Source: Larkinella rosea (GTDB taxonomy: Bacteria; Bacteroidota; Bacteroidia; Cytophagales; Spirosomataceae). Taken from it: DNA of 64,000 nucleotides. The notes under the pieces are model-generated. The model was given only the letters and a program-made list of their open reading frames with translations. It was not told the origin of the DNA and did not search any database. The stretch is taken from positions 1,303,941-1,367,940 of the forward strand of contig NZ_RQJO01000007.1 in assembly GCF_003858635.1 (NCBI RefSeq), in the 5' to 3' direction. Position numbers and translations under genes: made by a program. This document shows, piece after piece, positions 1 to 64,000 of this stretch; positions within the stretch are counted from its first letter, which is position 1, and each line of letters begins with the position of its first letter.

Positions 1-1431
1 ATTCAGCCGAACCGAAAACTTATCGGAAACCTGCGACGCAATGTTCGAACGGATGGTATATCGTTTAAAATCCGAATTATTTACAATCCCGTTCTGATTC
101 AGGTAATTGGACGAAATCAGGTACGTCGTTTTGTCGTTTCCGCCCGAAATCCCCAACTGATATTCCTGCCCTCCGGCTTTGCGCAACACTTCATTTTGCC
201 AGTCGGTACCGCCATTTTGCCGAAACCCGTCGATCTGAGCCTGCGTAAAAACCGGGTTTGAGTTACCCACGGCAGCCCGCGCATTCACCACCTCGGCGTA
301 ATCGACCGCATTCAGCATATCCATTTTCTTCAGCACCTGCGAGGACGAAAACCGGGTGCCGAAGTTCACCTGCATGCTTCCTTTCTTCCCGGTTTTGGTC
401 GTGATGATGATCACTCCGTTGGCGCCCCGGCTTCCGTAAATCGCCGTAGCCGACGCGTCTTTCAACACCTCCAGAGAGGCAATATCGTCCGGGTTGATGT
501 TGTTGAAATCAGCGCCCACAAAACCGTCCACCACATACAATGGGCTGTTATCACCGTTGATCGAGTTGGCGCCCCGGATGCGGATCCGAACATCCCCCCC
601 CGGCGAACCGGAAGCATTGGTCACCTGTACTCCCGCAACCCGGCCTTGAAGAATCTGATCCAGGCGCGTAACGGGCTGTTCCTTAAAATCATCGACGGCA
701 ATCGACGCCAGCGAACCGGTCACATCGCTCTTTTTCTGCGTTCCGTAGCCTACCACGACCACTTCATTCAGGGATTTAATGTCGGCCTGAAGACTGATTT
801 CAAGTGACGAGGTTTGGTTGCTGATGGCCACTTCTCTGGAAATAAAGCCGATGGACGAAATCACGAGCGTGTGATTGCCGTCGGGAACGTTCAGCGTAAA
901 TCGCCCGTTGCCATCCGTCGCTGTGCCGGTGTTGGTGCTTCCTTTCAGCAAAACCGTTGCTCCGGCAATAACGCCCCCAACGTTGTCGATGACCCTCCCG
1001 GTCACGTTATACGCCAGAACGGTGGTCTCGACGGTGATATCTGGTCCCTCCACTCGTTGTCCGGTAGTAATCATTCGCTTCAGCAAAATCTGGTTTCCGG
1101 CGATCTCGTAACTTATTTTTAAAGGAGTCAGTAATTCACTGAGAATCAATTCGAGTTTTCGGTTTTTAGCCACTAACGAAACCGTCCGCTCCGACTGAAT
1201 CAGCTCCGGGCTGTACATAAACCGCACGTCCGATAACTTACTGATTTTTTCGAGCACTGTCCCGATTTTCTGATCCTGAATCTGGACCGAAATCCGGCGA
1301 CTGAGTACGTCCTGCGCGTGGCCGTGATAGGCCACCGCGAGATCCGTAAACGCCACCATGACGGCAAGTTGTAGGAGGCTGATTCTCATAATTATTCGCA
1401 GGGCTTCATGCGAGGGTACGTATTTTTTCAT
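1..1431 (-). CDS. SusC/RagA-type TonB-dependent receptor with STN domain (3' end outside window)
   Basis: Outer-membrane receptor that imports a large ligand, probably a glycan, with TonB energy. I translated the reverse strand from ATG at 1431 and it stays open to base 1, giving the first 477 residues of about 1000. A signal peptide is followed by an STN domain (about residues 45-100), a carboxypeptidase-regulatory-like domain (about 120-195) and the plug, which opens with the family motif EVVVVGYGTQKKSDVTGS and carries RIRGANSING and the SusC-typical DASATAIYGSRGANGVIIITT. The STN domain marks it as a signalling receptor talking to a FecR protein, and a fecR gene lies just upstream (1751-2860). 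A second ATG at 1389 is possible, but ATG 1431 gives the usual basic N terminus (MKKYVPSHEALR). The substrate cannot be told, and any SusD partner would lie left of base 1. Confidence 0.93.
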   Translation of the reverse strand, partial: MKKYVPSHEALRIIMRISLLQLAVMVAFTDLAVAYHGHAQDVLSRRISVQIQDQKIGTVLEKISKLSDVRFMYSPELIQSERTVSLVAKNRKLELILSELLTPLKISYEIAGNQILLKRMITTGQRVEGPDITVETTVLAYNVTGRVIDNVGGVIAGATVLLKGSTNTGTATDGNGRFTLNVPDGNHTLVISSIGFISREVAISNQTSSLEISLQADIKSLNEVVVVGYGTQKKSDVTGSLASIAVDDFKEQPVTRLDQILQGRVAGVQVTNASGSPGGDVRIRIRGANSINGDNSPLYVVDGFVGADFNNINPDDIASLEVLKDASATAIYGSRGANGVIIITTKTGKKGSMQVNFGTRFSSSQVLKKMDMLNAVDYAEVVNARAAVGNSNPVFTQAQIDGFRQNGGTDWQNEVLRKAGGQEYQLGISGGNDKTTYLISSNYLNQNGIVNNSDFKRYTIRSNIASQVSDKFSVRLN

Positions 1432-1648
1432 ACTTTTGACCGTTTTGCTGGTTGTGAAAAATTGGCAAAATCTCTCCCGTATCCTCTTCAGGATAAGTTG
1501 TTTGAACGTCAACTGCAGCGGGACTGTAATTCGGGTGAATGATGCTGGAACATCGTTCACCTTTTTTTGTACTTCGGAGTTATCGCATAGAGATTGGCAG
1601 GGGTTAAAAGTTAAGGGTTAGGAATAGGTTTTCGGTATTCTGTTTTCG

Positions 1649-1664
1649 GTTTACGGTATTCGGT
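1649..1664. repeat. Intergenic repeat word shared with 20067-20082, within an imperfect inverted repeat
   Basis: The 319-bp gap between fecR and susC holds no gene. It contains a stretch (about 1628-1668) built from variants of TTTTCGGT and TTTACGGTATTCGGT, and an imperfect inverted copy at about 1719-1746, so the transcript could fold into a large hairpin. The exact 16-mer at 1649-1664 recurs at 20067-20082, between dinB and the second fecR. A looser version (TTTTCGGTATTCAGTATTCG) lies at 50925-50946. Function unknown; termination, attenuation or a small dispersed element are all possible. Confidence 0.55.
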
Positions 1665-1750
1665 TTACAGCAATATGATTTTCAGTCAGAATCAATGCAC
1701 TCCTTAGTCATGCATCAGCAACCGTAAACTGAAACCCGTAAACGGAGAAA

Positions 1751-2860
1751 CTAGCAAGCTTTGCCGGTTATAAAAATCTGTTGTCCACGAACCTCATAGG
1801 TGGCTTCCAGAATTGTACAGATCCATTGCATTTTTTTCAATAATGGCTCATCGCCGAGTGTGGCCGTGATGCTGCACCGCGCCATTATGTCTTCGTCAAA
1901 AACAATATCAACGCCATATGCCTTTTCCAGATTGGCGAACACCTTCGAAACCGGGGTGGCATTGTAATCGAATTGCTGGTTTTCGATCGGCATATCCAGC
2001 AAAACCGGCGTGCCGACCTGCGTTTTCACCAGGCGGGTTTCGTTCCGTTCGAACGTTGCCTGCTGATTTGGCATCAGGACCATGCCGGCCAGTTCGCGGT
2101 TACTGCGCAACGTTTCGGCCTGTCGGTCGTTCTGCGCAAACACGGATACCTTGCCGGTTTTGACAACCACAATCACCCGTCCCTCACTGCCATACGCTTT
2201 TACGCTAAAACTGGTACCCAACACTTTGGTAATCAACCCATTCGCGATAACAAAGAACGGTTTTTGGGGATTTTTGGAGACTTCAAAAAACGCTTCGCCC
2301 GACAGATAAACTTCGCGTTTATCGCCAGTAAATACTTTTGCGTAATGGAGCTGACTGTTTTTTCGCAGAACGACCGAGCTGCCATCCGGCAACAGGACGT
2401 GTTTCGGAGCTGAACTGTTATTCACTACCCTATCCAACGCGCTGATTTCTTTGGGCAGAGTAGTAGGCTGAGCCGGTTTTTCCGTTGCGGTTTTTTCATT
2501 GAACAAGCTATAAAATGACCAGCTTAAGCCCATCAGGAGCGCAATGGAAGCGGCCAGATTCCACCAGCTTCGTCCAAATGGATGAATGGTTTTAAAGGAC
2601 TCAAGCCGTTTTTCCTGTCGCCGGGCCTCCGCCAATGCCTGCCGGATTTTAGCGGTTACCTGATCGTCCGGGAGATTAACCGGATTTCCTTCAATGGTTT
2701 TGATCGTTTGGCGGGCGTGTTCCAGAATTTCCGGCCGTGACGGGTTTTCCTGTTGCCAATTCTGCCAATAGTCATCCTGATCGGGTGCATCACCCACCGC
2801 CCAGGCTACAAACCGGGGATTTTCCAACAACCACTGAAAAACTGTATTTCTGTCATCCAT
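1751..2860 (-). CDS. FecR-family anti-sigma factor / transmembrane regulator
   Basis: Inner-membrane regulator that passes the occupancy state of an STN-bearing TonB receptor to an ECF sigma factor. The 369 residues show a cytoplasmic N-terminal domain (1-100), one membrane span (about 104-122, WWNLAASIALLMGLSWSFY), a periplasmic FecR domain (about 140-240, with LPDGSSVVLRKNSQLHY and VYLSGEAFFEV) and a C-terminal DUF4974-type STN-interaction domain (about 285-365). It lies 319 bp upstream of the STN-SusC gene on the same strand, so the two very probably form a cis-acting signalling pair. The usual neighbouring sigma gene is missing: upstream is a divergent oxidoreductase pair. Confidence 0.93.
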   Translation of the reverse strand: MDDRNTVFQWLLENPRFVAWAVGDAPDQDDYWQNWQQENPSRPEILEHARQTIKTIEGNPVNLPDDQVTAKIRQALAEARRQEKRLESFKTIHPFGRSWWNLAASIALLMGLSWSFYSLFNEKTATEKPAQPTTLPKEISALDRVVNNSSAPKHVLLPDGSSVVLRKNSQLHYAKVFTGDKREVYLSGEAFFEVSKNPQKPFFVIANGLITKVLGTSFSVKAYGSEGRVIVVVKTGKVSVFAQNDRQAETLRSNRELAGMVLMPNQQATFERNETRLVKTQVGTPVLLDMPIENQQFDYNATPVSKVFANLEKAYGVDIVFDEDIMARCSITATLGDEPLLKKMQWICTILEATYEVRGQQIFITGKAC

Positions 2861-3053
2861 AAAAAATCCGAATCCATCTTGCCTGTATCCTACGCTATTA
2901 TCCCAAAGCCAATCAACAAATACTCACCTCTGACATCTTTTTTCTCATTTTTTTTACGCATTTCCTGCATGAGTAAACCGTACTCCCTAATTGCTTTACC
3001 GATTAAACCTTCATCTTGCTTTTTACCAACTATTTATAAAACCGATCCTATCG

Positions 3054-3596
3054 ATGTCCACTTCATTTATTCCCCGTCGGGAAGCGTTGCAACGGCTCGC
3101 CCTGCTGGTTGGTACCACCCTTTCGCTGCCGGTGCAGGCGGCTTTGCGGGGTGAAACAAGTGCGGGAGTTCCGCTGGTTTTTGCGGCCGATCAGCAAAAA
3201 ATGATCGCTGACCTGGCTGAAGTCATTCTTCCGGCCACCGACACGCCCGGTGCCAAAGCCGCCGGTGTCGATCGGTTCATTGAGTATGTCATCGGACATT
3301 GCACGGTTCCGGCCCAGCAGGAAACGTTTCAGAAAGGATTGCAGCAAACCGACGCCTTCAGCCGGACAGCTTATGGAAAAGCATTTTCGGAATTAGACCC
3401 CACGCAACAGACGGAGATTGTTCGACAATTGACTCAGCGGGAAAAGCAATTTTTCCAGAACATACGCGAACTAACAATTGTGGGCTTCTTCACCTCGGAA
3501 CTCGGAGCCACCAAAGTGGCGGAATATCTCCCCATCCCCGGCCGTTTCCAGGGCGATATTCCGTTAAAACCGGGGCAGAAAGTTTGGGCGATTTAA
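3054..3596 (+). CDS. Gluconate 2-dehydrogenase subunit 3 family protein (gamma-type small subunit)
   Basis: Small subunit of a membrane or periplasmic FAD dehydrogenase; in characterised FAD glucose dehydrogenases the gamma subunit carries the Tat signal and takes the flavoprotein subunit across the membrane. The N terminus MSTSFIPRREALQRLALLVG has a twin-arginine followed by a hydrophobic stretch and an A-x-A-like cleavage zone (PVQAAL). The rest matches the family: a helical QQKMIADLAEVILPATDTPGA segment near residue 45 and a C terminus with LPIPGRFQGDIPL. I chose ATG 3054 because the upstream in-frame ATG (2991) would put 21 unrelated residues before the Tat signal. The large GMC subunit follows 143 bp downstream. 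Confidence 0.88.
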   Translation: MSTSFIPRREALQRLALLVGTTLSLPVQAALRGETSAGVPLVFAADQQKMIADLAEVILPATDTPGAKAAGVDRFIEYVIGHCTVPAQQETFQKGLQQTDAFSRTAYGKAFSELDPTQQTEIVRQLTQREKQFFQNIRELTIVGFFTSELGATKVAEYLPIPGRFQGDIPLKPGQKVWAI

Positions 3597-3739
3597 TCGT
3601 TTAAAGGTTCTGGTTTATCGTCTTTTGTCTTACTCAATGGATTGCCGATCAATGGGTTAATTACAAATCTAAACGATGGACCGGAAACCGGTTTTATTGA
3701 CATAAAAACGAACCTCTATTAATTCGAACGGAAAAAATT

Positions 3740-5443: not shown

Positions 5444-5445
5444 GT

Positions 5446-5549: not shown

Positions 5550-5553
5550 TTTT

Positions 5554-7260: not shown

Positions 7261-7347
7261 ACGTACCCACGGACTTTAGTCCGTGAAATTCTCAATTGAT
7301 AGATGACTTCAAATTAAAAAATCACGGACTAAAGTCCGTGGGTACGT
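7261..7347. repeat. Inverted repeat with nested GGACTAAAGTCC palindromes
   Basis: Arms 7261-7286 and 7322-7347 are perfect 26-bp inverted copies. Each arm is itself palindromic (CACGGACTTTAGTCCGTG in the left arm), so the element can fold as one long stem or as two small cruciforms. It lies between the symporter stop and the araR start. GGACTAAAGTCC-type words occur as REP-like dispersed palindromes in several environmental bacteria, so this may be a mobile palindrome that landed in the ara operon. Confidence 0.7.
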
Positions 7348-9002
7348 TAATAAAATACCGAAAATACCAATAAAACGAGGCAGGTAATGATGACTGCACC
7401 AATCAGGAACGGTTTTGAAACCCGGAACCAGTTGGCTTCCACCGCGAACGCTTTCGGCGAATCGTTCCCTTTGGATTCGGCCAGACTGATCACCACTTGC
7501 AAAATGACGCACGCCCAGAAAACCAGCCCCATGCGGTTGAGGAAGGGAATGTCCGGCGCGTTGAATTTCAGAAAAGTCGAAAGCGGAATACTCAGCAACG
7601 CGGCCGCCAGCGCCCCATTCGAGGTGGCTTTTTTCCAGAAAAAACCGAGCAGGAAAATGGCAAGAATACCCGGCGAGATAAAACCGGTGTATTCCTGAAT
7701 ATACTCAAACCCTTGTCCCAGATTTTTCAGGAATGGACTGATCGCCAGTGCAATGACGAATGAAACCACGATGGCAACCCGACCGCGCCAGACGGTTTGT
7801 TTTTCGGTCAGGTTTTTGTTGAAGAATTTCTGGTGGATGTCGAGCATGTAAATGGTCGAAATGCTGTTGGCTTTTCCGGCCAGCGAGGCCACAATGGCCG
7901 CCGTCAGCGCGGCAAACGCCATGCCTTTCAAACCCGACGGCAGCAGATTGAGCAAAACCGGGTACGAATTGTCGGGCTTAATTACGCCCCCTTCCGTAAT
8001 CCCCCGAACAATGGCCGGATCGGCATTTTCCTGAAACAGGACATAAGCCGCCAGTCCGGGCAATACGACAATAAATGGCATCATGATTTTCAGGAACGAG
8101 GCAAACAGCAAACCATTGCGGGCCGTGCTCAAATTGGCCCCGAGCGCACGCTGGGTAATGTATTGATTGCAGCCAAAATAATTGAAATTCACGATCCACT
8201 GCCCGCCGATCACAAACATCATAAAACCGGGTAACTGGCTATAGGCGTCCGTAAAACCGCCTTTCCCGTCATACACCTGGTATTGTCCCTTGCTGAAAAT
8301 CATGTGCAAATGACTATCGGCTTTCTCACGAATCAGGCCCAGGCCTTCAAAAACACCCGCTCCGGTTCCGACTTTATCGGACAGCAAATCGAGGGCTAAA
8401 TACGTTGTGGCCAAACCGCCAACGACCAGACAAACGACCTGAATGACATCCGTATACCCGATTACTTTCATTCCACCCAACGTAATGAAAACCGCAAAAA
8501 CCGTCAGGAAAACCGCGCAGCTCATAAATCCAAAACCAGTCATTTTTTCCAGACTCAACGCACCCAGGTAAATAATGGACGTCAGGTTGACGAGAATATA
8601 CAGAAAAAGCCAGAAAACCGCCATGATCGTCGCCAGCCGTCCGTCGTAGCGGTTTTGCAGAAACTGCGGCATGGTGTAAATCCGGTTCTTGATGTACATC
8701 GGCAGGAAGTAAATTGCGATGATGATGAGTGAAAAACCGCCCACCAGTTCGTATACCGAAATCGCCAGACCGAGCTGAAACGCCTGCCCGCTCATGCCGA
8801 TAAACTGCTCCGCCGAGATGTTGGACGCAATGATCGACGCGCCGATGGCCCACCACGTCAGCGAACCTTCGGCCAGAAAGAAGTCCTTCGAGTCGGCGGT
8901 TTGCTTGCCCTTGTGCGTGTAAACCCAATAGCCGTAGACGGCCACGATTACAAAATAGACCAGGAAGATTAGGTAGTCGATCGATTCAAGTCCGAGCGTC
9001 AT
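7347..9002 (-). CDS. Sodium:solute symporter (SSS family), probable L-arabinose transporter
   Basis: Polytopic inner-membrane carrier of 551 residues using the sodium gradient to bring in a sugar. About 14 membrane spans are visible from YLIFLVYFVIVAVYGYWVYT near residue 10 to the end (FLIGAVIITCLVLLVFSVFY). SSS signatures include ASIIASNISAEQFIGMSGQA in the second helix, GGFSLIIIAIYFLPMYIKN, and GMAFAALTAAIVASLAGKAN with STIYMLDIHQKF further on, resembling the SGLT branch. Its place between araD and araR makes L-arabinose the likely substrate; the sequence alone does not prove this. Confidence 0.88.
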   Translation of the reverse strand: MTLGLESIDYLIFLVYFVIVAVYGYWVYTHKGKQTADSKDFFLAEGSLTWWAIGASIIASNISAEQFIGMSGQAFQLGLAISVYELVGGFSLIIIAIYFLPMYIKNRIYTMPQFLQNRYDGRLATIMAVFWLFLYILVNLTSIIYLGALSLEKMTGFGFMSCAVFLTVFAVFITLGGMKVIGYTDVIQVVCLVVGGLATTYLALDLLSDKVGTGAGVFEGLGLIREKADSHLHMIFSKGQYQVYDGKGGFTDAYSQLPGFMMFVIGGQWIVNFNYFGCNQYITQRALGANLSTARNGLLFASFLKIMMPFIVVLPGLAAYVLFQENADPAIVRGITEGGVIKPDNSYPVLLNLLPSGLKGMAFAALTAAIVASLAGKANSISTIYMLDIHQKFFNKNLTEKQTVWRGRVAIVVSFVIALAISPFLKNLGQGFEYIQEYTGFISPGILAIFLLGFFWKKATSNGALAAALLSIPLSTFLKFNAPDIPFLNRMGLVFWACVILQVVISLAESKGNDSPKAFAVEANWFRVSKPFLIGAVIITCLVLLVFSVFY

Positions 9003-36173: not shown

Positions 36174-37022
36174 ATGGAGAAGGATTTGCTGTATAAAGGC
36201 TTTTTTTTCGGTGGAGTTTATGGACTGGCCTTCTTCCTGATTTATCGCTTTGGTCGAAAAACCGCACCCGTACGCGCCGTCTGGCTGTCGGTGGGAAGCT
36301 GGTGCGGACTAATGGTCATTATGCTGACGGTTAATGGCGCGAGTTCGGCCCTCCTGTTTTTTCCTGCTTTTTTTGCGGCCTTGTTTGTAGTCCGGCGAAA
36401 TGCCGAAAATCGTGAAATACGTACGTTGCAAGCCTTCTTTACGGAAAATCGACTATACAAGGCTGAAGCAATTCCGGAACAGGTTTCCAGGCTGCTCGGG
36501 AGTTCGTATTATTCCTGCGCAGTCGGCACCCTCACCGGATGGGGCGGTGAGGAAATCACCTACCACTGGTGGCAGGGCATGACATCGTCGCTGGTTTCAA
36601 CCGGAAAATCCACCATCACCACATTTTCGTATTACCTGGCCGTATCTTTCGCATCGAGTGTCATCAACGATGCATTTAAAAACGCGGTCAGGGCGAAGGC
36701 GGATACGTCCACGCTTTCCATCAAACAAAAATTCAAGCGGTTTTTTGTTCTGGATACCGAAACGCCGGTGCGAATCGCGGAAACCGCAGACGGAAGTTTT
36801 GTCGTGATCTGGCAAACCTGTCACGATGTTCCACATTTTGCCTATTACGTTAGCTGGCTCACAGCCACCCTTTCGGCCAGCAAAAGCGAAACGAACAAGC
36901 GTTCGGCAACGGAAAATAAACGAGTTTCACCAGGCCTTTCTACCAGAGAACTACACGAATCAACACTGGGTCAGGCCCCCAAGTCCATTTCATCCATCCG
37001 CTCTTCCATCCCCCGATCATGA
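36174..37022 (+). CDS. Membrane protein of unknown function
   Basis: 282 residues, no family recognised. Three hydrophobic segments fill the first 75 residues (GFFFGGVYGLAFFLIYRFG; VWLSVGSWCGLMVIMLTV; SALLFFPAFFAALFVV). The rest, up to about residue 240, looks like a soluble domain (LLGSSYYSCAVGTLTGWGGE, FVVIWQTCHDVPHFAYYVSW). The last 40 residues are poor in hydrophobic residues and look unlike a folded protein, whereas the +1 frame there (36880-37048) reads INEFHQAFLPENYTNQHW, so a frameshift near 36880 is possible. The stop overlaps the next start as ATGA, which argues that the present frame may still be used. Confidence 0.7.
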   Translation: MEKDLLYKGFFFGGVYGLAFFLIYRFGRKTAPVRAVWLSVGSWCGLMVIMLTVNGASSALLFFPAFFAALFVVRRNAENREIRTLQAFFTENRLYKAEAIPEQVSRLLGSSYYSCAVGTLTGWGGEEITYHWWQGMTSSLVSTGKSTITTFSYYLAVSFASSVINDAFKNAVRAKADTSTLSIKQKFKRFFVLDTETPVRIAETADGSFVVIWQTCHDVPHFAYYVSWLTATLSASKSETNKRSATENKRVSPGLSTRELHESTLGQAPKSISSIRSSIPRS

Positions 37023-37855
37023 CCCAACTCCTTAAACCAATGACTTTTCTTTCGCTATTTACCGGAATTGTAACAGGTAGCTGGCTGCTCACGGGTTGTG
37101 GAAAAAGTGCCCGGAATGGCTACCGGGTTGAAGATGGTAAAGTCGTGTTATACAGCGGTTTTCCCGCCAGCGTGCGACTTCTGGAGGGCGCTGATGCGGA
37201 GTCGTTTGTGGCCATTACGGATCACTTTGGGAAGGATAAAAATCATGCCTATTTTTACGAGCGCATCATTCCGGATGCAGACCCCGCCACATTTACCTTT
37301 CTGGCGAGTTCCTATTCCCGGGACAAAAACCGGGGGTATTCGTGCGAAAAGTTGATCAGCAACGATGGCGCCCATTTCAACATTGTTCCCAATCCGAACG
37401 AAACCGCAACCTCCGTATCGGCTGAAGGAATCCCCTATGCCCGTGATCGTCGGCAGGTTTACAAAGATACGAATGTTATCGAAGGGGCTGATCCGGCCAC
37501 ATTTACGATGGTTCCGATGTTCAACGGAATTTACCTGACCTACGACCATCGGCGGGTTTATTTCCACGACCAGCCATTGGAAGGCGCCGACGGAGCAACG
37601 TTTCAGAAAGTTTCTGAATTTCATTTTACCACCCAACAGGGCGCGTGGGGCCTGGCGTTGGGCAGGGAAACCCATTGGGAGCGAATGCCGGATGTGGACC
37701 TGGCCACGTTTACCGGTTTGGGAAAAAATCACGCCCGGGACAAAAACCACGTTTATTCCGGAAATTCCGTCCTTAAAAAAGCCGATCCGAATACCTTCCA
37801 GGAAACCGGCAATCCGTCCGTTGATCGTTCTGAAGATACAAATAAAACCCTATGA
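37019..37855 (+). CDS. DKNYY-domain lipoprotein
   Basis: Exported lipoprotein of 278 residues. Signal with lipobox LLTGC (cysteine about 27). The body is a string of DKNYY-family repeats, each with a 'ARDKNHVY'-like unit: FGKDKNHAYFYERIIPDADP, YSRDKNRGYSCEKLIS, YARDRRQVYKDTNVIEGADP, YDHRRVYFHDQPLEGADG and HARDKNHVYSGNSVLKKADP. The fold's biochemical role is not known. It is joined by ATGA overlaps both to the gene before (37019) and to the gene after (37852), so the three proteins are probably made together. Confidence 0.87.
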   Translation: MTQLLKPMTFLSLFTGIVTGSWLLTGCGKSARNGYRVEDGKVVLYSGFPASVRLLEGADAESFVAITDHFGKDKNHAYFYERIIPDADPATFTFLASSYSRDKNRGYSCEKLISNDGAHFNIVPNPNETATSVSAEGIPYARDRRQVYKDTNVIEGADPATFTMVPMFNGIYLTYDHRRVYFHDQPLEGADGATFQKVSEFHFTTQQGAWGLALGRETHWERMPDVDLATFTGLGKNHARDKNHVYSGNSVLKKADPNTFQETGNPSVDRSEDTNKTL

Positions 37856-39360
37856 TACAGCGGTATACCCAACTTCTGGCTTCACTCCTTCTGGTGGTAA
37901 GCGCGGCAACTGGACCGGTTTTTGCCCAGCATTACACGCTTGAAACCGTACCCAATCCAAAGCAAAACCGCAGTTCGGAGTATGTCAGCAACCCGGATCA
38001 TATGCTGTCGGACCGGGCCGTTGACCAGATTAATACGAAGTTGCAGGCACTGGAAGACTCCACGACCGCGCAGGTAGCCGTAGTATGCCTGAATTCCATC
38101 GGAGAAAACGTGCCCAAAGACTTCGCTACGGCGCTGTTTCGAAAATGGGGGTTGGGTTACCAGAAGAAAAATAACGGTTTGCTGATTTTACTCGTAAAGG
38201 ATCAGCACCGCATCGAAATGGAAACCGGCTACGGGCTGGAAGGCATTTTGACCGACGCGCTTTGCCGCCGGATTCAGACCCGGCAAATGGTTCCGCTGGC
38301 TAAATCCGGTGATTTTGACGGAGCAGTCGTCGCCGGTGTTACGGAAATTACCCGCCTTCTCACTGCGCCCGAAGCGGCCCGGGAGGTGTACGATGATTCC
38401 CGAAAAACCGGTCCTCAACCGCTCGACAATTCGGCTATTTTTATCCTGTTTTTGCTGCTCATTCCCTGTCTGGTAATCTTGCGGATACTCAGGTTAATCT
38501 TCAAACGCTCGAATCCGGTGGCGGACCAGCTTGAGAAAGCCGTGGCTAAGTCCAAAGGGCGGATAGCGTGGGGATTTTTGCTTTATTTGATCATGCCGCT
38601 GGCTCTTGGCATTGCCGTCATCAACCTTCGCGAACCCTTATCGCTGCGGGGCTGGCAAATTCTGTTTATTCTGTATGCCTACGCCGGTGTCGTTCGGTGG
38701 GATGCCCGCCGACGGCGCAGCAACTGGTTCGCGAAACTTTTTGGAAGCCTGTCAGAACCCGAACAGTATGCGCATTTGAAAGCTGCCGGGCTCAATGGCT
38801 GGAGTAACATTCTGCTTTTTCCGATTCCCTTTGGCTGGTTTCGTAGTGAGGAAAACCGATTGCTGAACACCCTCCGAAATCACGCCCGCCAGTCGAACGG
38901 CGCAGAATTAAGCAAACTGAGCAACGATCAAAAAACTGCCTTTTTAACTGATTACCAACGAATTGAACAACGCCTGAATACCGTTGACTACGATGTCTGG
39001 CGCAATGAATCCCGTGACATTACGCAGGTCATCGGCTACGAAAACCTGAAAAACAAAGCCTATCAACCCTGCAATAAATGCCATTCAAGAACTCTCTCGT
39101 TCACTAAAAAACGGGTGATTTCGCGGGCCACAACGGAGCGCGAAGGCCGCGGCAGCAACGACTACGATTGCCAGGCTTGTGGTCATCACCGGGAGGTTCA
39201 CTTCACCCTTTCGAAAGTGAGCGAAAGCGCTTCATCGAACTCATCCAACTCCTATTCTTCGTCGGATAACAGCTCTTCCGGGAGTTCGTCGGATGGTTCA
39301 TCCAGCAGCAATTGGGGCGGGGGCAGTTCGGGGGGCGGGGGTTCCGGCAGTGATTGGTAA
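37852..39360 (+). CDS. TPM-domain (YgcG-like) membrane protein with Gly/Ser-rich tail
   Basis: 502 residues. Signal peptide 1-24, then a TPM domain at about 45-165 (LSDRAVDQINTKLQALEDS, FRKWGLGYQKKNNGLLILLV, GYGLEGILTDALCRRIQTRQ); TPM domains occur in photosystem II repair and in presumed membrane quality control. Two membrane spans follow (about 188-207 and 245-285). A cysteine pair CNKC and a second pair CQAC (about 405 and 440) form a probable zinc ribbon. The tail is almost pure Ser/Gly (SSGGGGSGSDW), typical of YgcG proteins. Role unknown; overlaps the DKNYY gene by 4 bp. Confidence 0.87.
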   Translation: MIQRYTQLLASLLLVVSAATGPVFAQHYTLETVPNPKQNRSSEYVSNPDHMLSDRAVDQINTKLQALEDSTTAQVAVVCLNSIGENVPKDFATALFRKWGLGYQKKNNGLLILLVKDQHRIEMETGYGLEGILTDALCRRIQTRQMVPLAKSGDFDGAVVAGVTEITRLLTAPEAAREVYDDSRKTGPQPLDNSAIFILFLLLIPCLVILRILRLIFKRSNPVADQLEKAVAKSKGRIAWGFLLYLIMPLALGIAVINLREPLSLRGWQILFILYAYAGVVRWDARRRRSNWFAKLFGSLSEPEQYAHLKAAGLNGWSNILLFPIPFGWFRSEENRLLNTLRNHARQSNGAELSKLSNDQKTAFLTDYQRIEQRLNTVDYDVWRNESRDITQVIGYENLKNKAYQPCNKCHSRTLSFTKKRVISRATTEREGRGSNDYDCQACGHHREVHFTLSKVSESASSNSSNSYSSSDNSSSGSSSDGSSSSNWGGGSSGGGGSGSDW

Positions 39361-39390
39361 TTTTTAAGTAAACCACTCAATACCACCCGA

Positions 39391-39651
39391 ATGTGGTTCA
39401 AAAATCACTTAAAAAACCGCCGATTGAAAAACCGCATCCGTCACCTTTCGGAAGCCCAACGGCGGGAAATTCTGGATAAATCGCCTTTTGAAGCCGGTTT
39501 TTTTCAGGGCACGGGTTTCGATGTCTTTCGGAAAGATGAACCCGATTTTGAAAAAGCGTACGTGTACGGCCTGGGCCATGTGATGCGGGATGTCGCCGAA
39601 AACTGGATTATCGAACAATACCTGCTGGCTACCCATGATGAAGTGGATTAA
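39391..39651 (+). CDS. Small hypothetical protein, 86 residues
   Basis: Very basic N terminus (WFKNHLKNRRLKNRIRHLSE) followed by an acidic, probably helical body (FEKAYVYGLGHVMRDVAENW). No signal peptide or membrane span and no family recognised. It follows the TPM gene by 30 bp, and its 3' end overlaps the next start codon by 17 bp, suggesting translational coupling. Confidence 0.65.
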   Translation: MWFKNHLKNRRLKNRIRHLSEAQRREILDKSPFEAGFFQGTGFDVFRKDEPDFEKAYVYGLGHVMRDVAENWIIEQYLLATHDEVD

Positions 39652-40816
39652 TGCTTTCGCCAATTTTACATTTTTTTGCGCAGTGTTTGGCAGTATAATG
39701 AATTTTATGGGGAGTTGTAGCTCCGAAAAGCAGGACTATTTTGCGGCAGATGCCCCCGTTCGGTCGGTTGACTTACCCCTTCCGTTTCCAACGAATCTGC
39801 TTTATCAGTCTTCTCCGGATTCTTCGGTCCTGATGGGCACCCGCAAACGGGGACCTGAGCAATTTGAAATCCGTGCCTTTGATTGTAAAACCGCCCAAAA
39901 GCTGTGGCAACTTCCGTTTGCCGGGACGATTGTCGGACAAACCGATTCGCAGATTTTAGTGTACGAAGAACGTACTTCAACTGTGCATTTTGTAAATCCA
40001 CGCGACGGCCGGATTACCCGCAACGTTTCCCCCGAACCAGCGCCTTTGACCAGCCCGTCGAGCCTGTATGGCGGTATGGCTTTTACGGATGACTTTTATC
40101 TGACCACCAAACCGCTGTATCAGAACGTAATCGTCAAAGACCAGATTGACACGTCCTGGAAAATTGGAATCACCGCCAAACGCTGGGAAACGAACGAGAC
40201 CGAGTGGTTTTTGCCGCCCGTAAAGCAAATCGTCATTCTTACCTATGCCCCCGTTATCCAGGGTGACAACGTCCTGGTCGTTAACGCGGAACAGAAAATG
40301 GGCAGTGGACATTCCTACCAGATTGTTTCGCTAAAAACCGGCCGGGAAATTCATCGGTCGGCGACGCAGGGAATCTTTTATTTATTGCGTAATGACCGGT
40401 TTTTCGAACGAACCAGCACATATGTCAGACGCATCGATCCGTTTACCCGGCGGGAAATCTGGCGGATTGATGGTAATTTTTCGCTTGGCTGGCTTTCCGA
40501 AATCGGTGATCAACTTGCGGTTTTATCCCGCCATTCCGATGGTACGCAGAACACGCTGCGCATTTTGAACGCCGGTACCGGACAGGAACGCAGCCAGTTC
40601 AATCTACCGTTCTTCAAAGAAGCTACATTGAAGGGGGCGTATTTGACCCGATTGAATCAGTTACTTCTGCATTTTGAAAGCAGTAACCCCAGGATTCCCG
40701 GTGAACGATTGTACGATTACTGGGTTGGCTACGATCCGAAAAACCGCAGAGCCCGTTGGCGCACTGATTTTCACAGCGAATCTTTCAGCAGTTTACTTCC
40801 ATTTGTAACCTTTTAG
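39635..40816 (+). CDS. Lipoprotein with PQQ-like beta-propeller
   Basis: 393 residues from ATG 39635 (39638 is equally possible). Lipoprotein signal ending in GSIMNFMGSCSSEKQ. The body shows propeller-blade repeats with W-x-L or W-x-I ends: FDCKTAQKLWQLPFAGTIVG, FVNPRDGRITRNVS, YQIVSLKTGREIHR, RIDPFTRREIWRIDGNF and LRILNAGTGQERSQF, closing with YDPKNRRARWRTDF. This is the PQQ-like fold found in BamB-type scaffolds as well as in enzymes; no PQQ-ligand set can be seen, so a binding role is more likely. The in-frame ATG at 39590 lies deep in the preceding gene. Confidence 0.75.
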   Translation: MMKWINAFANFTFFCAVFGSIMNFMGSCSSEKQDYFAADAPVRSVDLPLPFPTNLLYQSSPDSSVLMGTRKRGPEQFEIRAFDCKTAQKLWQLPFAGTIVGQTDSQILVYEERTSTVHFVNPRDGRITRNVSPEPAPLTSPSSLYGGMAFTDDFYLTTKPLYQNVIVKDQIDTSWKIGITAKRWETNETEWFLPPVKQIVILTYAPVIQGDNVLVVNAEQKMGSGHSYQIVSLKTGREIHRSATQGIFYLLRNDRFFERTSTYVRRIDPFTRREIWRIDGNFSLGWLSEIGDQLAVLSRHSDGTQNTLRILNAGTGQERSQFNLPFFKEATLKGAYLTRLNQLLLHFESSNPRIPGERLYDYWVGYDPKNRRARWRTDFHSESFSSLLPFVTF

Positions 40817-40959
40817 CGGTTTTAATTTACCACATGTAGACTCGCAACCGCCACCTGTAAAGCCAAATTCACCCGGTATCGAGTTTCGCTCCCTTAACCC
40901 ATCCGAAACGGTAGTTTTGATTTATTCAACCACCTCATTCCAAACTCAAAACGCCACGC

Positions 40960-53654: not shown

Positions 53655-55361
53655 ATGTATTTACGTTCCCAAGAATGGTTTGGCCGTACCGGTAAAGACG
53701 GTTTTATTTACCGCGCCTGGATGAAAAACCAGGGTTTTCCGCACCATTTATTTGAAGGTAAACCGGTTATCGGTATCTGCAATACATTTTCTGAACTTAC
53801 ACCCTGCAACGCCCACTTCCGCGATCTGGCCGAAGCCGTTAAACGGGGCGTGTGGGAAGCGGGCGGTTTTCCGCTCGAATTTCCGGTGATGTCGCTGGGC
53901 GAATGCCAGATGAAACCGACCACGATGTTGTTCCGCAACCTCGCAAGTATGGACGTGGAAGAGTCGATTCGGGGCAATTCAATGGATGCCGTTGTGCTGC
54001 TCTGCGGCTGCGACAAAACCACGCCCTCGCTGGTGATGGGGGCTTGTAGCGTCGACCTGCCCACCGTTGTGGTGTCGGGCGGTCCGATGCTCGCGGGAAA
54101 ATACAAAGGACGGAACATCGGAACCTCCGACCTGTGGCGGTTTGCCGAAGCGAACAAGAAAGGCGAAATGTCGCAGGAAGAGTTTGTGGCCGCCGAAGCC
54201 TGCATGGCCCGGAGTCAGGGCCACTGCGCCGTGATGGGAACCGCATCGACAATGGCCGCGATGGTTGAATCACTGGGCCTGGCCCTGCCCGACAACGCCA
54301 CCATACCGGCCGCCGATTCGCGCCGGAAAGTGCTGGCCCACATGGCCGGGATGCAGGCCGTTGAACTGGCAAAGAACAACATTCGTCCATCCCAGATTCT
54401 GACGCGCCAGGCATTTGAAAACGCGATCATGGTAAACGCGGCACTGGGCGGTTCCACCAACTTTATCATTCACCTGACGGCCATTGCCGGTCGGATGGGC
54501 GTTCAGTTGTCGATCGACGATTTCGATAAATTATCGGCTCAAATTCCGCTGCTGGCCAATTTACAGCCGTCGGGCGAGCATTTTGTGGAAGATTTGTTCT
54601 ACGCCGGTGGTCTGCCCGCCATAATCAAGGAATTGCAGCAGTTTTTGCACAACGACGCCATGACGATCAATGGACGCACACTGGGCGAAAACAGTCTGAC
54701 CGCCGAGTGTTATAACCGCGATGTCATTGCTTCCGTCGCCGAACCGTTTAAATCGGAGTCGGGCGTAGCCATCCTGAAAGGAAATCTGTGTCCCAACGGA
54801 GCAGTGTTGAAACCGTCGGCGGCCTCCCCCGAACTGATGCAGCACACGGGCCGGGCGGTGGTGTTCGAGAATATCGATGATTACAAAAAGCGCATCGATG
54901 ACCCGGAACTGGACGTTGATCCATCGTGCGTACTGGTGCTGAAAAACGTGGGGCCCAAAGGATACCCGGGTATGCCGGAAGTCGGCAACATGCAACTCCC
55001 GGCCAAAGTGCTGGCGCAGGGTGTTCACGACATGGTTCGGATTTCGGACGGACGGATGAGCGGCACCGGTTTTGGGACGGTGGTTCTGCACGTTTCGCCG
55101 GAAGCAGCCGTTGGCGGGAATCTGGCGCTGGTGCAGAACGGCGACCTGATTACGCTCGATGTGGAAAAACGCCTGCTGCACCTCCACGTCGAACCGGAAG
55201 AACTCGCCGAACGGCTGACGCACTTTCAGCCGATCGATCTGGGGTATGAAAGGGGCTACACCCGGATGTATATCCACCACGTCTTGCAGGCCCACGAAGG
55301 CGCCGACTTCGACTTCCTGCAGGGCAGTTCGGGGCCGGTGGTGAAACGGGACTCGCATTAA
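53655..55361 (+). CDS. IlvD/Edd-family dehydratase, pentonate (L-arabinonate-type) subgroup
   Basis: Iron-sulfur dehydratase acting on a sugar acid or dihydroxy acid, 568 residues. Three cysteines can ligate a 2Fe-2S cluster: C51 (SELTPCNAHF), C119 (LLCGCDKTTPSL) and C191 (SQGHCAVMG). Their spacing fits the known L-arabinonate dehydratase cluster ligands (C59, C127, C200) almost exactly, and K121 is at the place of the carbamylated lysine. RISDGRMSGTGFGTVVLHVS supplies the C-terminal active-site serine. The N terminus (MYLRSQEWFGRTGKDGFIYR) also favours sugar-acid dehydratases over IlvD. No aldonate dehydrogenase partner is adjacent. Confidence 0.9.
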   Translation: MYLRSQEWFGRTGKDGFIYRAWMKNQGFPHHLFEGKPVIGICNTFSELTPCNAHFRDLAEAVKRGVWEAGGFPLEFPVMSLGECQMKPTTMLFRNLASMDVEESIRGNSMDAVVLLCGCDKTTPSLVMGACSVDLPTVVVSGGPMLAGKYKGRNIGTSDLWRFAEANKKGEMSQEEFVAAEACMARSQGHCAVMGTASTMAAMVESLGLALPDNATIPAADSRRKVLAHMAGMQAVELAKNNIRPSQILTRQAFENAIMVNAALGGSTNFIIHLTAIAGRMGVQLSIDDFDKLSAQIPLLANLQPSGEHFVEDLFYAGGLPAIIKELQQFLHNDAMTINGRTLGENSLTAECYNRDVIASVAEPFKSESGVAILKGNLCPNGAVLKPSAASPELMQHTGRAVVFENIDDYKKRIDDPELDVDPSCVLVLKNVGPKGYPGMPEVGNMQLPAKVLAQGVHDMVRISDGRMSGTGFGTVVLHVSPEAAVGGNLALVQNGDLITLDVEKRLLHLHVEPEELAERLTHFQPIDLGYERGYTRMYIHHVLQAHEGADFDFLQGSSGPVVKRDSH

Positions 55362-60087: not shown

Positions 60088-60103
60088 ATTAAATGAATGA
60101 GGG

Positions 60104-60145
60104 TGGTATAAAAGTGTTATATTCGATGGTAACACTTTTATACCA
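60104..60145. terminator. Bidirectional terminator hairpin
   Basis: Perfect 16-bp arms (60104-60119 and 60130-60145; TGGTATAAAAGTGTTA) and a 10-nt loop between the convergent stops of the peptidase and fasciclin genes. Confidence 0.82.
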
Positions 60146-60155
60146 GAATTCCCTT

Positions 60156-60836: not shown

Positions 60837-61059
60837 GATAAAAAGTGGTTTGGTTTACAAAACGTTGAGAATCTACTACCAACTTTTAACACATTCGGTC
60901 GGTAAATTGTTGTCAGAATACAATTGGGTTAACGGGGCGTGTCTGGAGAATATTTTGTTTCGAGGCATTGAACATCAGTAATCTTATCGTAGAAAAGGGC
61001 AACAAGTTGCGTCCTTTATCAAAAAAGTATCACCTTTGTCTTTATTCAATTTTTTAAAC

Positions 61060-61530: not shown

Positions 61531-61551
61531 TTCATTCCCGTAAATAATCTG

Positions 61552-61598
61552 TCGGTCACCGGTTTTTTTCATAAGTTTGGAGAAAGATCGGTGACCGA
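61552..61598. terminator. Hairpin downstream of the SlyD-like gene
   Basis: Arms TCGGTCACCG (61552-61561) and CGGTGACCGA (61589-61598), 10 bp perfect, followed by T-rich DNA inside the loop. A TAAGTTTG box (61572-61579) for the next gene lies in the loop, so this may also be a regulatory site. Confidence 0.55.
61572..61579 (+). promoter_or_regulatory. Candidate -7 box (TAAGTTTG) for the gene at 61633
   Basis: Matches TANNTTTG, 53 bp upstream of ATG 61633 and inside the loop of the hairpin 61552-61598. Confidence 0.45.
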
Positions 61599-61632
61599 TC
61601 CATTTTATTCCAACATCCTTCTCCTGTACGCC

Positions 61633-62220
61633 ATGAAAAAAATTACCGCTGTTTTTCTCACCGGCTTTTGTGCCGTCAATGCCTTCGCCCAAACCGCCCC
61701 TACTCCCGAGCTTCAGATAAAAACGGCCGTTATGGCAGCGCCTGCCGACAAGCGCGATGGCGCGACGGTTTATGGGTATACGGGTAAAAATGAGATGATT
61801 GTGCTCCGGAAAGGAACGAACGATTACGTTTGCCTGGCCGATGATCCAACCCAGAAGGGCCTGAATGTGTCCTGTTACTACGTGGGGCTGGAACCGTTCA
61901 TGGCACGCGGACGGGAGTTGAAAAAAGAAGGAAAATCACCCGCCGAAATCATGAAAATCCGGGAAGAAGAAGAAAAGGCGGGTAAGTGGAAAATGCCCAA
62001 ACAGCCGTCGTCACTTTTTGTCTACTCAGCTCCTGATTCAAACTACAATGCCGCCACGGGCGAAGTAAAAAATGGCTACCTGCGCTCGGTGGTATATATT
62101 CCGTACGCCACCTCCGAAAGCACCGGTTTGCCCCTCAAAGCTGAAGCTCCCGGCATGCCCTGGATCATGGACCCCGGCACGCACCGGGCGCACATCATGA
62201 TCAATCCGGCGCGGAAGTAA
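61633..62220 (+). CDS. Exported protein of unknown function
   Basis: 195 residues from ATG 61633 with a clear signal peptide (KKITAVFLTGFCAVNAFAQ). Mature part: MAAPADKRDGATVYGYTGKN, VLRKGTNDYVCLADDPTQKG, a charged helix (LKKEGKSPAEIMKIREEEEK) and PWIMDPGTHRAHIMINPARK. The single domain is not one I can name. The upstream ATG 61591 adds only 14 residues before the signal and was rejected. Confidence 0.8.
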   Translation: MKKITAVFLTGFCAVNAFAQTAPTPELQIKTAVMAAPADKRDGATVYGYTGKNEMIVLRKGTNDYVCLADDPTQKGLNVSCYYVGLEPFMARGRELKKEGKSPAEIMKIREEEEKAGKWKMPKQPSSLFVYSAPDSNYNAATGEVKNGYLRSVVYIPYATSESTGLPLKAEAPGMPWIMDPGTHRAHIMINPARK

Positions 62221-62249
62221 ATTTCAGGCTACCTGACTTTCCGGATTGG

Positions 62250-62323
62250 ATGGTTAAACGGGTTGGTTGACGCGTGCGTTCAAAAGAAAGAAAAAGAGTG
62301 CGTCAGCCAACCGGTTTAACCAT
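62250..62323. terminator. Long inverted repeat between convergent genes
   Basis: Arms 62250-62273 and 62300-62323 (24 bp, two mismatches, 26-nt purine-rich loop) between the stops of the exported protein and EcsC genes. Confidence 0.75.
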
Positions 62324-62339
62324 CAGCACCCTATAAACA

Positions 62340-63077
62340 TTACCTTTCTAACGCCCTCCCTTCCGCCCACCGCATTCGGTATGCATTCATGGCGGTTTTC
62401 CCGAGGGACTCGAGTAGGCGGTAATTGGCGACTAAACCGACGGCGGCTCCGATGCCGGGAACCAGTTGCGCCATTTTAACCAAATCAATGTAATCGCGGT
62501 ATTCCTGCTGAAAGGTTCGCCAGTCGAATTGATCGATGTCGTCGGGCAATTGCTGGCTTTTGACCTGCCAGTTAATCATTTGCTGGTAAACCGCCTGCCG
62601 ACGCTCCTGGCTCGAAAACGCCAGCTGGAAAATATGCATGATGTATAACCGCTCCTTGTATTCGTTAATCGGGTAGCCGTAAATGGCCGCTATTTCGAAT
62701 AAGAGCTTCATTTTCAGAGCGAGTAAGAGCGGAAAATCCGCTAGCCCCAGCAAAATCCCTCCCGCTCCCGTCACCCCGCCTTCGGCCGCTCCGGCGGTTT
62801 TATAAAAGGCAATGCGGTCCCGAACGCGCTCCTCCCGTTCCTCCAGTGATAACGGTTCCAGCACCGGCTGGCGGGTCAGAAACTCCGCGCCGAACAAAAC
62901 CGCCCGCGTCATTTGCTTGATGGTGGCCGTAATTGCCTGGTGGACTTTTTCCGGAATAATTTTGTTAATTCGGGTTTGAAGATTCTTGGAAAGGCGGTTG
63001 ACGGTAGACGGTTTCCGCATCATTTTCAGTCGCCAGACATTCAATTCGCGCACAACGGCGTCTTCGTAGTGAGACAT
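62340..63077 (-). CDS. EcsC-family protein
   Basis: 245 residues of the EcsC family (named from Bacillus, function unclear). Family features: NKIIPEKVHQAITATIKQMT near 40, the Gly-rich hydrophobic GAAEGGVTGAGGILLGLADF followed by PLLLALKMKLLFEIAAIYGY, and the late MAQLVPGIGAAVGLVANYRL stretch. The hydrophobic stretches suggest membrane contact. It lies 21 bp downstream of the beta-helix gene on the same strand. Confidence 0.88.
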   Translation of the reverse strand: MSHYEDAVVRELNVWRLKMMRKPSTVNRLSKNLQTRINKIIPEKVHQAITATIKQMTRAVLFGAEFLTRQPVLEPLSLEEREERVRDRIAFYKTAGAAEGGVTGAGGILLGLADFPLLLALKMKLLFEIAAIYGYPINEYKERLYIMHIFQLAFSSQERRQAVYQQMINWQVKSQQLPDDIDQFDWRTFQQEYRDYIDLVKMAQLVPGIGAAVGLVANYRLLESLGKTAMNAYRMRWAEGRALER

Positions 63078-63098
63078 AATTGGTTGGTTGGTTCGAAA

Positions 63099-64000
63099 TT
63101 AACGCGGGCCCTGTCGTCGGCTGGTTTGCCGGACACCGGTTCCCAATTTAGCATTGTTGGTTACCTTATTATATCCTTCGAACGTTGAATTTTCGACGGT
63201 CGTGTTGAAAGAGTCCAGACTTAGTTGAATGGCCGTTTTGGTGCTGTCAGTGGTGACAAAGCGGGTTCCGTCGGTGATCCGACTTTGCTTGATACGGGCG
63301 CCAATGATACCGCTGTTGATAAACTGGCTGTTTCTAACCAGCAATTCGGTTAGTTGTCCGTTGTAATAGCGGATGTTTCCGCCCCGAAAGGTGGTCCCGT
63401 TGACAGTAATCCGGCGCGAACCGGAATTCTCGTAACTAATGTACACATCTTTGTCAAACTCACAACCGGGTCCGATGATGGTTTCCTCCTCGGTGGAACT
63501 ACCCCCGCCATAGTTAGCAAATGAATTACGGGCCAGCGTATGAACGGTTTTCACCCGAGACATGGTAACTGGCCCGCTAAACGTCAGTGCGCCATCGGTA
63601 TCCGTTGCTTCCAACGTCTTCCCACAGTTCCGGGCCGTGAAATTATCAATCGAAATTCGGTAGATATGATGTAACCCTTTCACTGCATTGATGCAATTCT
63701 CCGCTTCGCCGGCACGAATTATTCCTTTGGCCCGCTCTGAAACGCCAAATCCAACCCGAAACCCAATGGCTTTACACTGATTCCAGGTAACCCGATGGTC
63801 CGAATCGGTTTGCTCCCCCTCCGACCAGAAACCGGCGTAAGGGCTGATGCCCTTGGTATTTCGGGCAATACAATGCGAAAAAACCGTACCCGGAGCATTA
63901 TCGCTGTCGAAGGCATCACCAACACAGTCGGTGGCTATGCAGTGTTCAAAGCGCGTATTTTTTGCATAACCACCTGCAATAAATGGTGACTTTCCTCCTA
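63099..64000 (-). CDS. Right-handed beta-helix (pectate-lyase-like) protein, 5' end outside window
   Basis: I read the reverse strand from base 64000 and find no stop until 63099, so 300 residues of the C-terminal side are present and the start lies to the right. The sequence has the ~22-residue periodicity of PbH1 repeats with N/D ladders: NTRFEHCIATDCVGDAFDSD, TVFSHCIARNTKGISPYAGF, VTWNQCKAIGFRVGFGVSER, RISIDNFTARNCGKTLEATD and VNGTTFRGGNIRYYNGQLTE. It is probably secreted and binds or cleaves a polysaccharide; catalytic residues cannot be placed without the N-terminal part. Confidence 0.85.
   Translation of the reverse strand, partial: GGKSPFIAGGYAKNTRFEHCIATDCVGDAFDSDNAPGTVFSHCIARNTKGISPYAGFWSEGEQTDSDHRVTWNQCKAIGFRVGFGVSERAKGIIRAGEAENCINAVKGLHHIYRISIDNFTARNCGKTLEATDTDGALTFSGPVTMSRVKTVHTLARNSFANYGGGSSTEEETIIGPGCEFDKDVYISYENSGSRRITVNGTTFRGGNIRYYNGQLTELLVRNSQFINSGIIGARIKQSRITDGTRFVTTDSTKTAIQLSLDSFNTTVENSTFEGYNKVTNNAKLGTGVRQTSRRQGPR

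Follow-up and report, generated by a model that had tools for sequence, protein, structure and literature searches.

The heptamer AAAACCG, together with CGGTTTT on the opposite strand, is iterated throughout the genome of Larkinella rosea, and because it has changed far less between species than the DNA flanking it, some component of the cell seems to read it. We tentatively propose, rating the chance as close to even, that AAAACCG is the recognition word of a putative sequence-specific DNA reader acting throughout the genome in Larkinella, for which a chromosomal DNA-binding protein of the nucleoid type is the likeliest candidate.

Abundance and placement of the word in Larkinella rosea

The window, by which we mean the whole stretch of 64,000 nucleotides analysed, contains 195 copies (Table 1), compared with 7.5 expected from base composition (order 0) and 61.4 under an order-3 Markov model, a ratio of 3.18, and AAAACCG has the highest order-3 z-score among the 7-mers of the window. 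This confirms the excess noticed in the first-pass annotation, whose counts by eye of 14 (7 + 7), 12 (10 + 2) and 17 (10 + 7) copies match the listed positions exactly, and whose estimate of about 7 copies per 64 kb on both strands from base composition agrees with the computed value. Set against the level of about three times the Markov expectation that it had named, the outcome varies, because the result depends on the model: the window lies above it, the surrounding 400 kb lies below it when unmasked (949 copies against 344 at order 3, 2.76-fold) and above it when the copies are masked before the model is fitted (expectation 217, 4.4-fold). The 8.17 Mb genome carries 19,544 copies (9,738 AAAACCG and 9,806 CGGTTTT), i.e. 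2,391 per Mb or about one per 420 letters, against 2,984 (1,501 + 1,483) for the reversed word; over a synonymous shuffle the enrichment is a modest 3.5-fold. Locally copies can crowd, as in the symporter gene, where three (8488, 8497 and 8509) lie within 28 bp.

Table 1. Word copies and reference genes in the 64-kb window.
Feature	Position	Strand	Remarks
AAAACCG/CGGTTTT word field	1..64000	99 on +, 96 on -	mean 1 per 328 bp; within and between genes
First 14 copies	248..3695	7 per strand	word positions in window
Sodium:solute symporter gene (PF00474)	7347..9002	-	12 copies in 7410-8739
17 copies of 36-41 kb	36258..40823	10 on +, 7 on -	word positions in window
ilvD, dihydroxy-acid dehydratase (PF00920/PF24877)	53655..55361	+	anchor for naming relatives and for picking regions of other Larkinella genomes

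Using gene calls made in this analysis within the 400 kb, we compared the copies with synonymous-codon shuffles. AAAACCG exceeded the shuffle 2.1, 2.2 and 4.1 times in the three codon phases and CGGTTTT 2.4, 6.5 and 7.0 times, and the intergenic DNA (67 kb) held 165 copies where 63 were expected at order 3. These results rule out a codon or amino-acid cause and bear out the earlier statement that copies occur in genes and gaps, on both strands and in all three frames; enrichment in one codon frame only, which had been named as contrary to it, is not what we see. Coding and intergenic DNA of L. rosea are about equally dense (2.34 and 2.45 copies per kb). Orientation relative to the sense strand is uneven in the coding DNA of the 400 kb (337 AAAACCG, 441 CGGTTTT), and in two other Larkinella genomes the intergenic density is below the coding one (0.93 vs 1.49 per kb in G058, 0.92 vs 1.06 in G100).

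The gaps between copies are exponentially distributed (CV 1.01), as for random spacing. No fixed spacing was seen, the 25 pairs lying 16 bp apart genome-wide being about what density predicts by our own arithmetic. Inverted pairs are at background level except for four overlapping AAAACCGGTTTT (0.56 expected) and the gaps between convergent genes show no increase (2.4 copies per kb), which rules out a terminator or hairpin repeat. Word-poor islands are likewise ruled out, since 12 stretches of at least 500 bp (157 kb), defined as unaligned to one 390 kb contig of L. terrae rather than to its whole genome, carry 2.25 copies per kb, compared with 2.44 in aligned DNA.

Conservation between species and the footprint of the word

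Our main comparison, L. rosea with L. terrae, covers 238 kb aligned at 84% identity. There AAAACCG is the best-kept of 901 heptamers, with 406 of 575 copies (0.71) retained, compared with 0.33 for 7-mers as a whole and 0.39 for letter permutations of the word; intergenic copies, at 79.5% identity, are retained in 42 of 71 cases. Synonymous sites, which the first-pass annotation had suggested as a check, proved to be conserved: 713 of 777 synonymous codons inside copies are kept against 536 expected (z 14), placing AAAACCG at rank 1 of 1,639 words, and in the independent pair L. arboricola (G043) and G100 it again ranks 1, of 2,365. Third-position changes at positions 1 to 8 occur at 0.50, 0.19, 0.23, 0.20, 0.34, 0.28, 0.24 and 0.50 of expectation, and return to near normal in the flanks (0.74-1.10). 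Exits from the word number 53 against 278 expected (ratio 0.19) and entries 53 against 24 (2.17). The differences from the word span many substitution types, and a rough polarisation, with small counts and distant outgroups, yields 20 gains and 22 losses. Retention neither rises nor falls steadily as the nearest copy lies farther away (0.69, 0.82, 0.61, 0.68 and 0.74 by quintile).

Comparisons of L. rosea with five more distant genomes rest on nucleotide alignments of only 10-29 kb each. Copies were kept in 27 of 73 cases in G058 (one-mismatch neighbours 0.30; AAAACCG 10th of 23), 29 of 57 in G091 (0.30; 1st of 6) and 13 of 71 in G016 (0.17; 11th of 22), and retention fell below that of the neighbours in G100 (10 of 45 vs 0.28; 2nd of 3) and G043 (7 of 29 vs 0.39; 2nd of 2). 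The pairs G100/G016 (21 kb aligned) and G043/G016 (6 kb) were too short for ranking.

AAAACCG is asymmetric and non-palindromic; in the 400 kb the base 3' of it is C in 0.32 and G in 0.38 of cases, and the footprint extends over about eight bases, A-A/t-A/t-A-C-C-G-C/G/t. One-mismatch neighbours are graded relative to the shuffle (CAAACCG 2.4, ATAACCG 2.1, AATACCG 2.0, AAAGCCG 1.5, changes at positions 5-6 0.8-1.25, AAGACCG 0.55) and thus resemble a binding preference. There is no shortage of one-step precursors (AAAATCG 0.95, AAAACTG 1.25, AAAAACG 0.96), which, for the two T-bearing ones, rules out a very-short-patch-repair word.

Explanations for the maintenance of the word

Under the proposed mechanism the whole word would be physically recognised by some cell component, probably a binding protein, and each copy would bring its own small advantage, a fixation bias of roughly 2Ns = 2, by which gains would be favoured and losses opposed until a balance was reached; the preference of the reader may drift between lineages, with AAAACCG leading in some and AATACCG in others. 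Our gene searches covered methyltransferases only and yielded no candidate reader gene. Several observations count against a reader: some 19,500 selected sites showing no visible dependence on spacing would be odd for a structural role, the enrichment is only modest, AATACCG rivals AAAACCG in four genomes, coding orientation is uneven, intergenic density is lower in G058 and G100, and in the five more distant genomes the word is not always kept above its neighbours. Of the four roles listed in the first-pass annotation, the DNA-binding protein stands as the best reading, a methylase target and a simple mutation bias are weakened, and an uptake signal is disfavoured.

The same marks as selection would be left by a repair- or conversion-type drive. 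In word-directed repair or short-patch conversion, which we consider unlikely though deserving of attention, a repair factor that recognises the word, whether or not methylation takes part, would make the word-bearing strand win, and copies would accumulate without benefit to the cell; the bias indeed seems to act at each copy separately whatever the spacing, and the exit and entry ratios agree equally well with a biased choice of strand and with selection. Elhai's mismatch-repair model for HIP1, as set out in PMC4390886, requires a methyltransferase and predicts that copies level off at around one per kb, whereas Larkinella has none of the four families searched in all nine genomes and L. rosea reaches 2.4 per kb with no sign of saturation. 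A context-dependent mutation spectrum that made the word faster than it destroyed it, with no function involved, would raise the frequency of any favoured word and of neighbours sharing its core, as seen here, and in a sample of the phylum several genomes with a lower density of copies equal or surpass Larkinella in the ratio of word to reversed word (G289, for example, has 1,196 copies vs 180 reversed in 2.5 Mb), so the reversed word is an imperfect control in that sample. Such a spectrum would, however, have to act in an eight-base context at every position and with sharp edges, and the eight consecutive protected positions, the undepleted C-to-T precursors, the varied substitutions and the near-equal gains and losses make this account improbable. 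We think it similarly improbable that AAAACCG is a DNA-uptake word of the DUS or USS kind, whereby word-bearing fragments would be preferred in transformation and replace resident alleles, so that copies rise. The lineage dialects, the density and the graded mismatches are reminiscent of the DUS of Neisseriaceae as described in PMC3630211, which gives 5,918 copies of kingDUS in a 2.4 Mb genome, and accumulation by point mutation with graded mismatches has been argued for uptake words (PMC1939737). Yet the footprint is eight bases, compared with the 12 of DUS and 9 of USS given in PMC3630211, copies are equally dense in coding and intergenic DNA of L. rosea, and, one copy per fragment being enough on the uptake reading, the lack of any drop in retention near other copies (0.69 within 51 bp, 0.61-0.82 in the other quintiles) disfavours it.

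A methyltransferase target, of a family outside those searched or differing between species, appears very unlikely. According to PMC4390886, HIP-type words of cyanobacteria go with matching methyltransferases, and the nine Larkinella genomes were searched for PF00145, PF01555, PF02086 and PF07669; none of these four families is common to all nine. PF00145 occurs in four, including both of the most enriched, L. rosea and G071; PF07669 matches in eight (G100 has no match, and that in G071 is weak, at 23 bits or 25.4 with neighbours); PF02086 occurs in four, L. rosea not among them; PF01555 is counted in seven and passes the cut-off in six, neither of the two most enriched being among these six. 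These results weaken the methylase role suggested earlier, and the graded A-tract preference would also be unlike a methyltransferase site. As a short, asymmetric, over-represented and conserved word, AAAACCG recalls Chi and the chromosome-orienting KOPS and AIMS, of which Chi and KOPS are strongly polar. In the one-contig genome G100, with the G-rich strand taken as leading, 376 copies are leading and 430 lagging (40 stretches, 20 contiguous), in keeping with the lack of KOPS-like polarity noted earlier, and we regard a role of this kind as scarcely credible.

Word dialects in Spirosomataceae

High AAAACCG density is confined, within the family sample, to the genus Larkinella: all nine genomes examined carry 776-2,391 copies per Mb, against at most 534 in the 141 genomes searched from elsewhere in Spirosomataceae. 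AAAACCG is the leading word in L. rosea, L. terrae and L. humicola, and AATACCG is enriched as much or more in G058, G100, G043 and G016. In the same family, Rhabdobacter and Telluribacter have another, near-palindromic word, AAGTACC/AGGTACC, which at 2,316 per Mb is comparably dense in Rhabdobacter and is rarer than its reversed control in each of the nine Larkinella genomes; between G042 (Telluribacter) and G015, of one genus, AGGTACC ranks 1st and AAGTACC 18th of 3,170 for synonymous conservation. Because other words, too, still stand at z near 10 against the synonymous shuffle in 190-330 kb, the moderate z of words in Spirosoma and Fibrella is not claimed. The dialects appear to follow phylogeny among the Spirosomataceae sampled.

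Our results uphold the suggested resemblance to HIP1 and uptake words, in that AAAACCG is a DNA-level, frame- and strand-independent word; it is a member of neither class on present tests. As in HIP1 and the alternate HIPs of cyanobacteria (GCGATCGC), for which PMC4390886 gives about 500-2,500 copies per million bases, a range that includes Larkinella, the word is iterated genome-wide in genes and gaps and has lineage-specific alternates; unlike HIP1, it is not palindromic, belongs to another phylum and shows a graded A-tract preference. Among the matches listed for the open-access literature there was no report of the AAAACCG word, nor of any iterated word for Larkinella or its family Spirosomataceae. 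What HIP1-type words do and how they arose are still debated, and PMC4390886 puts forward a candidate repair model. AAAACCG offers a non-palindromic case outside cyanobacteria, kept base by base. Since Larkinella has several cultured species at useful distances and a sister clade with a different word, and shares none of the four methyltransferase families throughout, a reader should be findable by pull-down with a probe of AAAACCGC repeats and by comparing genera with one another. It is conceivable, though we hold it doubtful, that Spirosomataceae possess a fast-evolving genome-wide word system, in which a fixation bias acting on each copy would maintain lineage-specific short words (AAAACCG with AATACCG for Larkinella, A[AG]GTACC[TC] for Rhabdobacter and Telluribacter, perhaps ACGTACC for Fibrella) and diverging proteins of a single putative DNA-binding family would read them; this would be the bacterial equivalent of uptake dialects, with neither uptake nor methylation involved.

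Abundance of the word in the window, the genus and the phylum

AAAACCG (CGGTTTT on the other strand) is the top heptamer of the window by z-score. The 64 kb hold 99 copies of AAAACCG and 96 of CGGTTTT, against 7.5 copies expected from base composition and 61.4 from an order-3 Markov model, and the local counts of 14, 12 and 17 made by eye in the first-pass annotation were exactly reproduced by counting. The 400 kb around the window contain 949 copies; the order-3 model expects 344, and 217 if it is fitted after masking the copies. The whole L. rosea genome (8.17 Mb) carries 9,738 + 9,806 copies versus 1,501 + 1,483 of the reversed word, a control of the same composition.

Synonymous codons were shuffled within genes (called by us from open frames on codon-use scores rather than taken from an annotation), preserving protein and codon usage. 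The word exceeded the shuffles in all codon phases and both orientations in L. rosea (2.1-7.0-fold), L. knui (1.8-6.0-fold) and another Larkinella, G100 (1.5-4.6-fold), so that codon choice does not account for the excess, in agreement with the claim made from the sequence. Intergenic copies also outnumber the order-3 expectation (165 vs 63, 71 vs 42 and 66 vs 42, respectively). The word is as dense in intergenic (2.45 per kb) as in coding DNA (2.34 per kb) of L. rosea; intergenic density is the lower in L. knui (0.93 vs 1.49 per kb) and G100 (0.92 vs 1.06).

Among 150 Spirosomataceae genomes, drawn evenly from a larger group and mostly with rounded sizes, the nine Larkinella range from 776 to 2,391 copies per Mb, or 3.3-6.5-fold over the reversed control, and the other 141 reach at most 534 per Mb. 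In a phylum sample of 395 genomes, L. rosea included, the densest other genome (G255; 2,852 copies in 3.7 Mb, control 904) has 771 per Mb, near the lowest Larkinella value. In the same sample, several smaller genomes show 5-6 times the control at ~480-620 per Mb, so that Larkinella is not unique by ratio alone; G264 has 1,363 copies versus 220 of the control and G289 1,196 versus 180. Within this sample Larkinella is distinguished by density, not by ratio.

Coordinates of ilvD features
Feature	Location	Observation
ilvD	window, 53655-55361	protein 99% identical to Larkinella terrae, 91-96% to six further named Larkinella records
ilvD	G003:C2:4273949-4275648	two overlapping pieces in different frames, as if frameshifted

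Conservation, footprint and turnover

L. rosea and L. terrae align over 238 kb at 84.0% identity. Of 575 copies in this alignment 406 are intact; the retained fraction, 0.706, compares with 0.332 for heptamers as a whole and 0.393 for permutations of its letters, and is the highest among the 901 words frequent enough to be ranked. At codons that encode the same amino acid in both genomes, 713 of 777 within copies are kept versus 536 expected, which ranks first of 1,639 words, and 42 of 71 intergenic copies are kept at a background identity of 79.5%. The synonymous change ratio over bases 1-8 is 0.50, 0.19, 0.23, 0.20, 0.34, 0.28, 0.24 and 0.50, and 0.74-1.10 in the flanks on either side; the protected footprint is eight bases with sharp edges. 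In an independent pair, L. arboricola and G100 (208 kb, 85.4% identity), AAAACCG again ranks first, of 2,365 words, followed by AAACCGT (2nd), AAAGCCG (3rd) and AATACCG (5th); its effect is smaller in this pair (change ratio 0.55). Compared with five more distant genomes (10-29 kb aligned each), the word came first once and was unremarkable in others.

One-mismatch neighbours show graded enrichment in L. rosea. Substitution at position 5 or 6 abolishes the excess and position 1 is loose; at positions 2 and 3 T is tolerated ahead of C and G is disfavoured, position 4 prefers A, position 7 G and then A, and position 8 is mainly G or C. AAAACCG is common to other Larkinella species and its companion words vary by species: AATACCG in L. 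knui, and AAAGCCGT, AATACCGT and AAAACCGT in G100 and L. arboricola. By ratio to shuffle, AATACCG is enriched at least as much as AAAACCG in L. knui (3.2 vs 3.1), G100 (2.8 vs 2.3), L. arboricola (3.2 vs 2.6) and L. soli (2.8 vs 1.9).

Synonymous exits from the word are rarer than expected (53 vs 278, 911 sites) and entries more frequent (53 vs 24, 114 sites), in a measure that assumes time reversibility. A fixation bias S predicts that entry minus exit equals the log of the entry/exit ratio; the values, 1.98 and 2.43 (estimated errors ~0.3 and 0.2), agree roughly in an informal comparison, which cannot tell selection and biased repair apart. When the 48 single-step differences that had an outgroup were roughly polarised, the outgroups being distant, 22 were losses, 20 were gains and 6 were unclear; a further 153 single-step differences lacked an outgroup, and 150 multi-step differences stood outside the count. 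Copies therefore seem to be near balance. Many substitution types take part in the turnover.

Candidate readings of the word

That eight bases in a row are protected, for either orientation within genes and likewise between genes, suggests that the word is recognised in its entirety by something, whether the bias arises from selection or from repair. We favour, tentatively and at slightly less than even chances, the reading that the word would be the binding site of a putative chromosomal protein, under weak selection copy by copy. Word-directed repair, with which the fixation bias is equally compatible, ranks next and appears unlikely.

Polar words, terminators and fragment-level uptake are opposed by the word's indifference to spacing and orientation. 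Gaps between copies in the 400 kb are exponential (CV 1.01) with no preferred spacing, inverted pairs there are at background level save four overlapping palindromes, and density is 2.8 per kb in tandem, 2.0 in divergent and 2.4 in convergent intergenic gaps. Across 40 stretches of G100, a single 6.56 Mb contig with its two replichores delimited by GC skew, the leading strand carries 376 copies and the lagging strand 430. Retention did not vary systematically with how far away the next copy lies. L. rosea DNA without alignment to the L. terrae contig used has 2.25 copies per kb versus 2.44 in aligned DNA. PMC4390886 describes cyanobacterial HIP words as generally accompanied by matching methyltransferases, whereas none of the four methyltransferase families searched is common to all nine Larkinella: PF00145 occurs in four, both most enriched genomes included, PF01555 in seven (six above cut-off), PF07669 in eight and PF02086 in four.

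Other over- and under-represented words

Several words are depleted in the window, namely GCCGGC (18 vs 103 expected), CCGCGG (16 vs 73), CGCCGC (0 vs 61) and CTAG (20 vs 134, order 1), and CAGCTG and CTGCAG are likewise depleted against the coding shuffles in Larkinella regions (L108-L207); restriction avoidance is one possible reason. In loci of ~22 kb from Ohtaekwangia koreensis and from a Bacteroidetes MAG (L074, L076) TACTATA is present 22 and 21 times, and TGACTAA has 16 copies in 21.7 kb of Spirosoma lacussanchae (L031; z ~10). ACGTACC (Fibrella/Fibrivirga) and ACGTAGC (Spirosoma), over-represented in ~22 kb loci (L033, L034, L024, L044), are possibly weaker iterated words comparable to AAAACCG and AAGTACC/AGGTACC.

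AAGTACC/AGGTACC is a highly iterated word different from AAAACCG. Rhabdobacter roseus (L069) has 15,982 copies of AAGTACC in 6.9 Mb versus 1,323 of the reversed control, and the word is nearly palindromic in 22 kb (A[AG]GTACC[TC]). Among 222 family genomes AAGTACC is raised to 355-798 per Mb in five more, of four genera (AAGTACC/AGGTACC was noted in G024, G017, G015 and G042), and it lies below the reversed control in all nine Larkinella. Between the Telluribacter G042 and its genus-mate G015 (155 kb, 85.4% identity), AGGTACC ranks 1st, AGTACCC 4th and AAGTACC 18th of 3,170 words in synonymous conservation, at modest z values (4.4, 3.9 and 3.0). The presence of this second word in Rhabdobacter and Telluribacter indicates that the genome-wide word phenomenon may recur in the family with other words.
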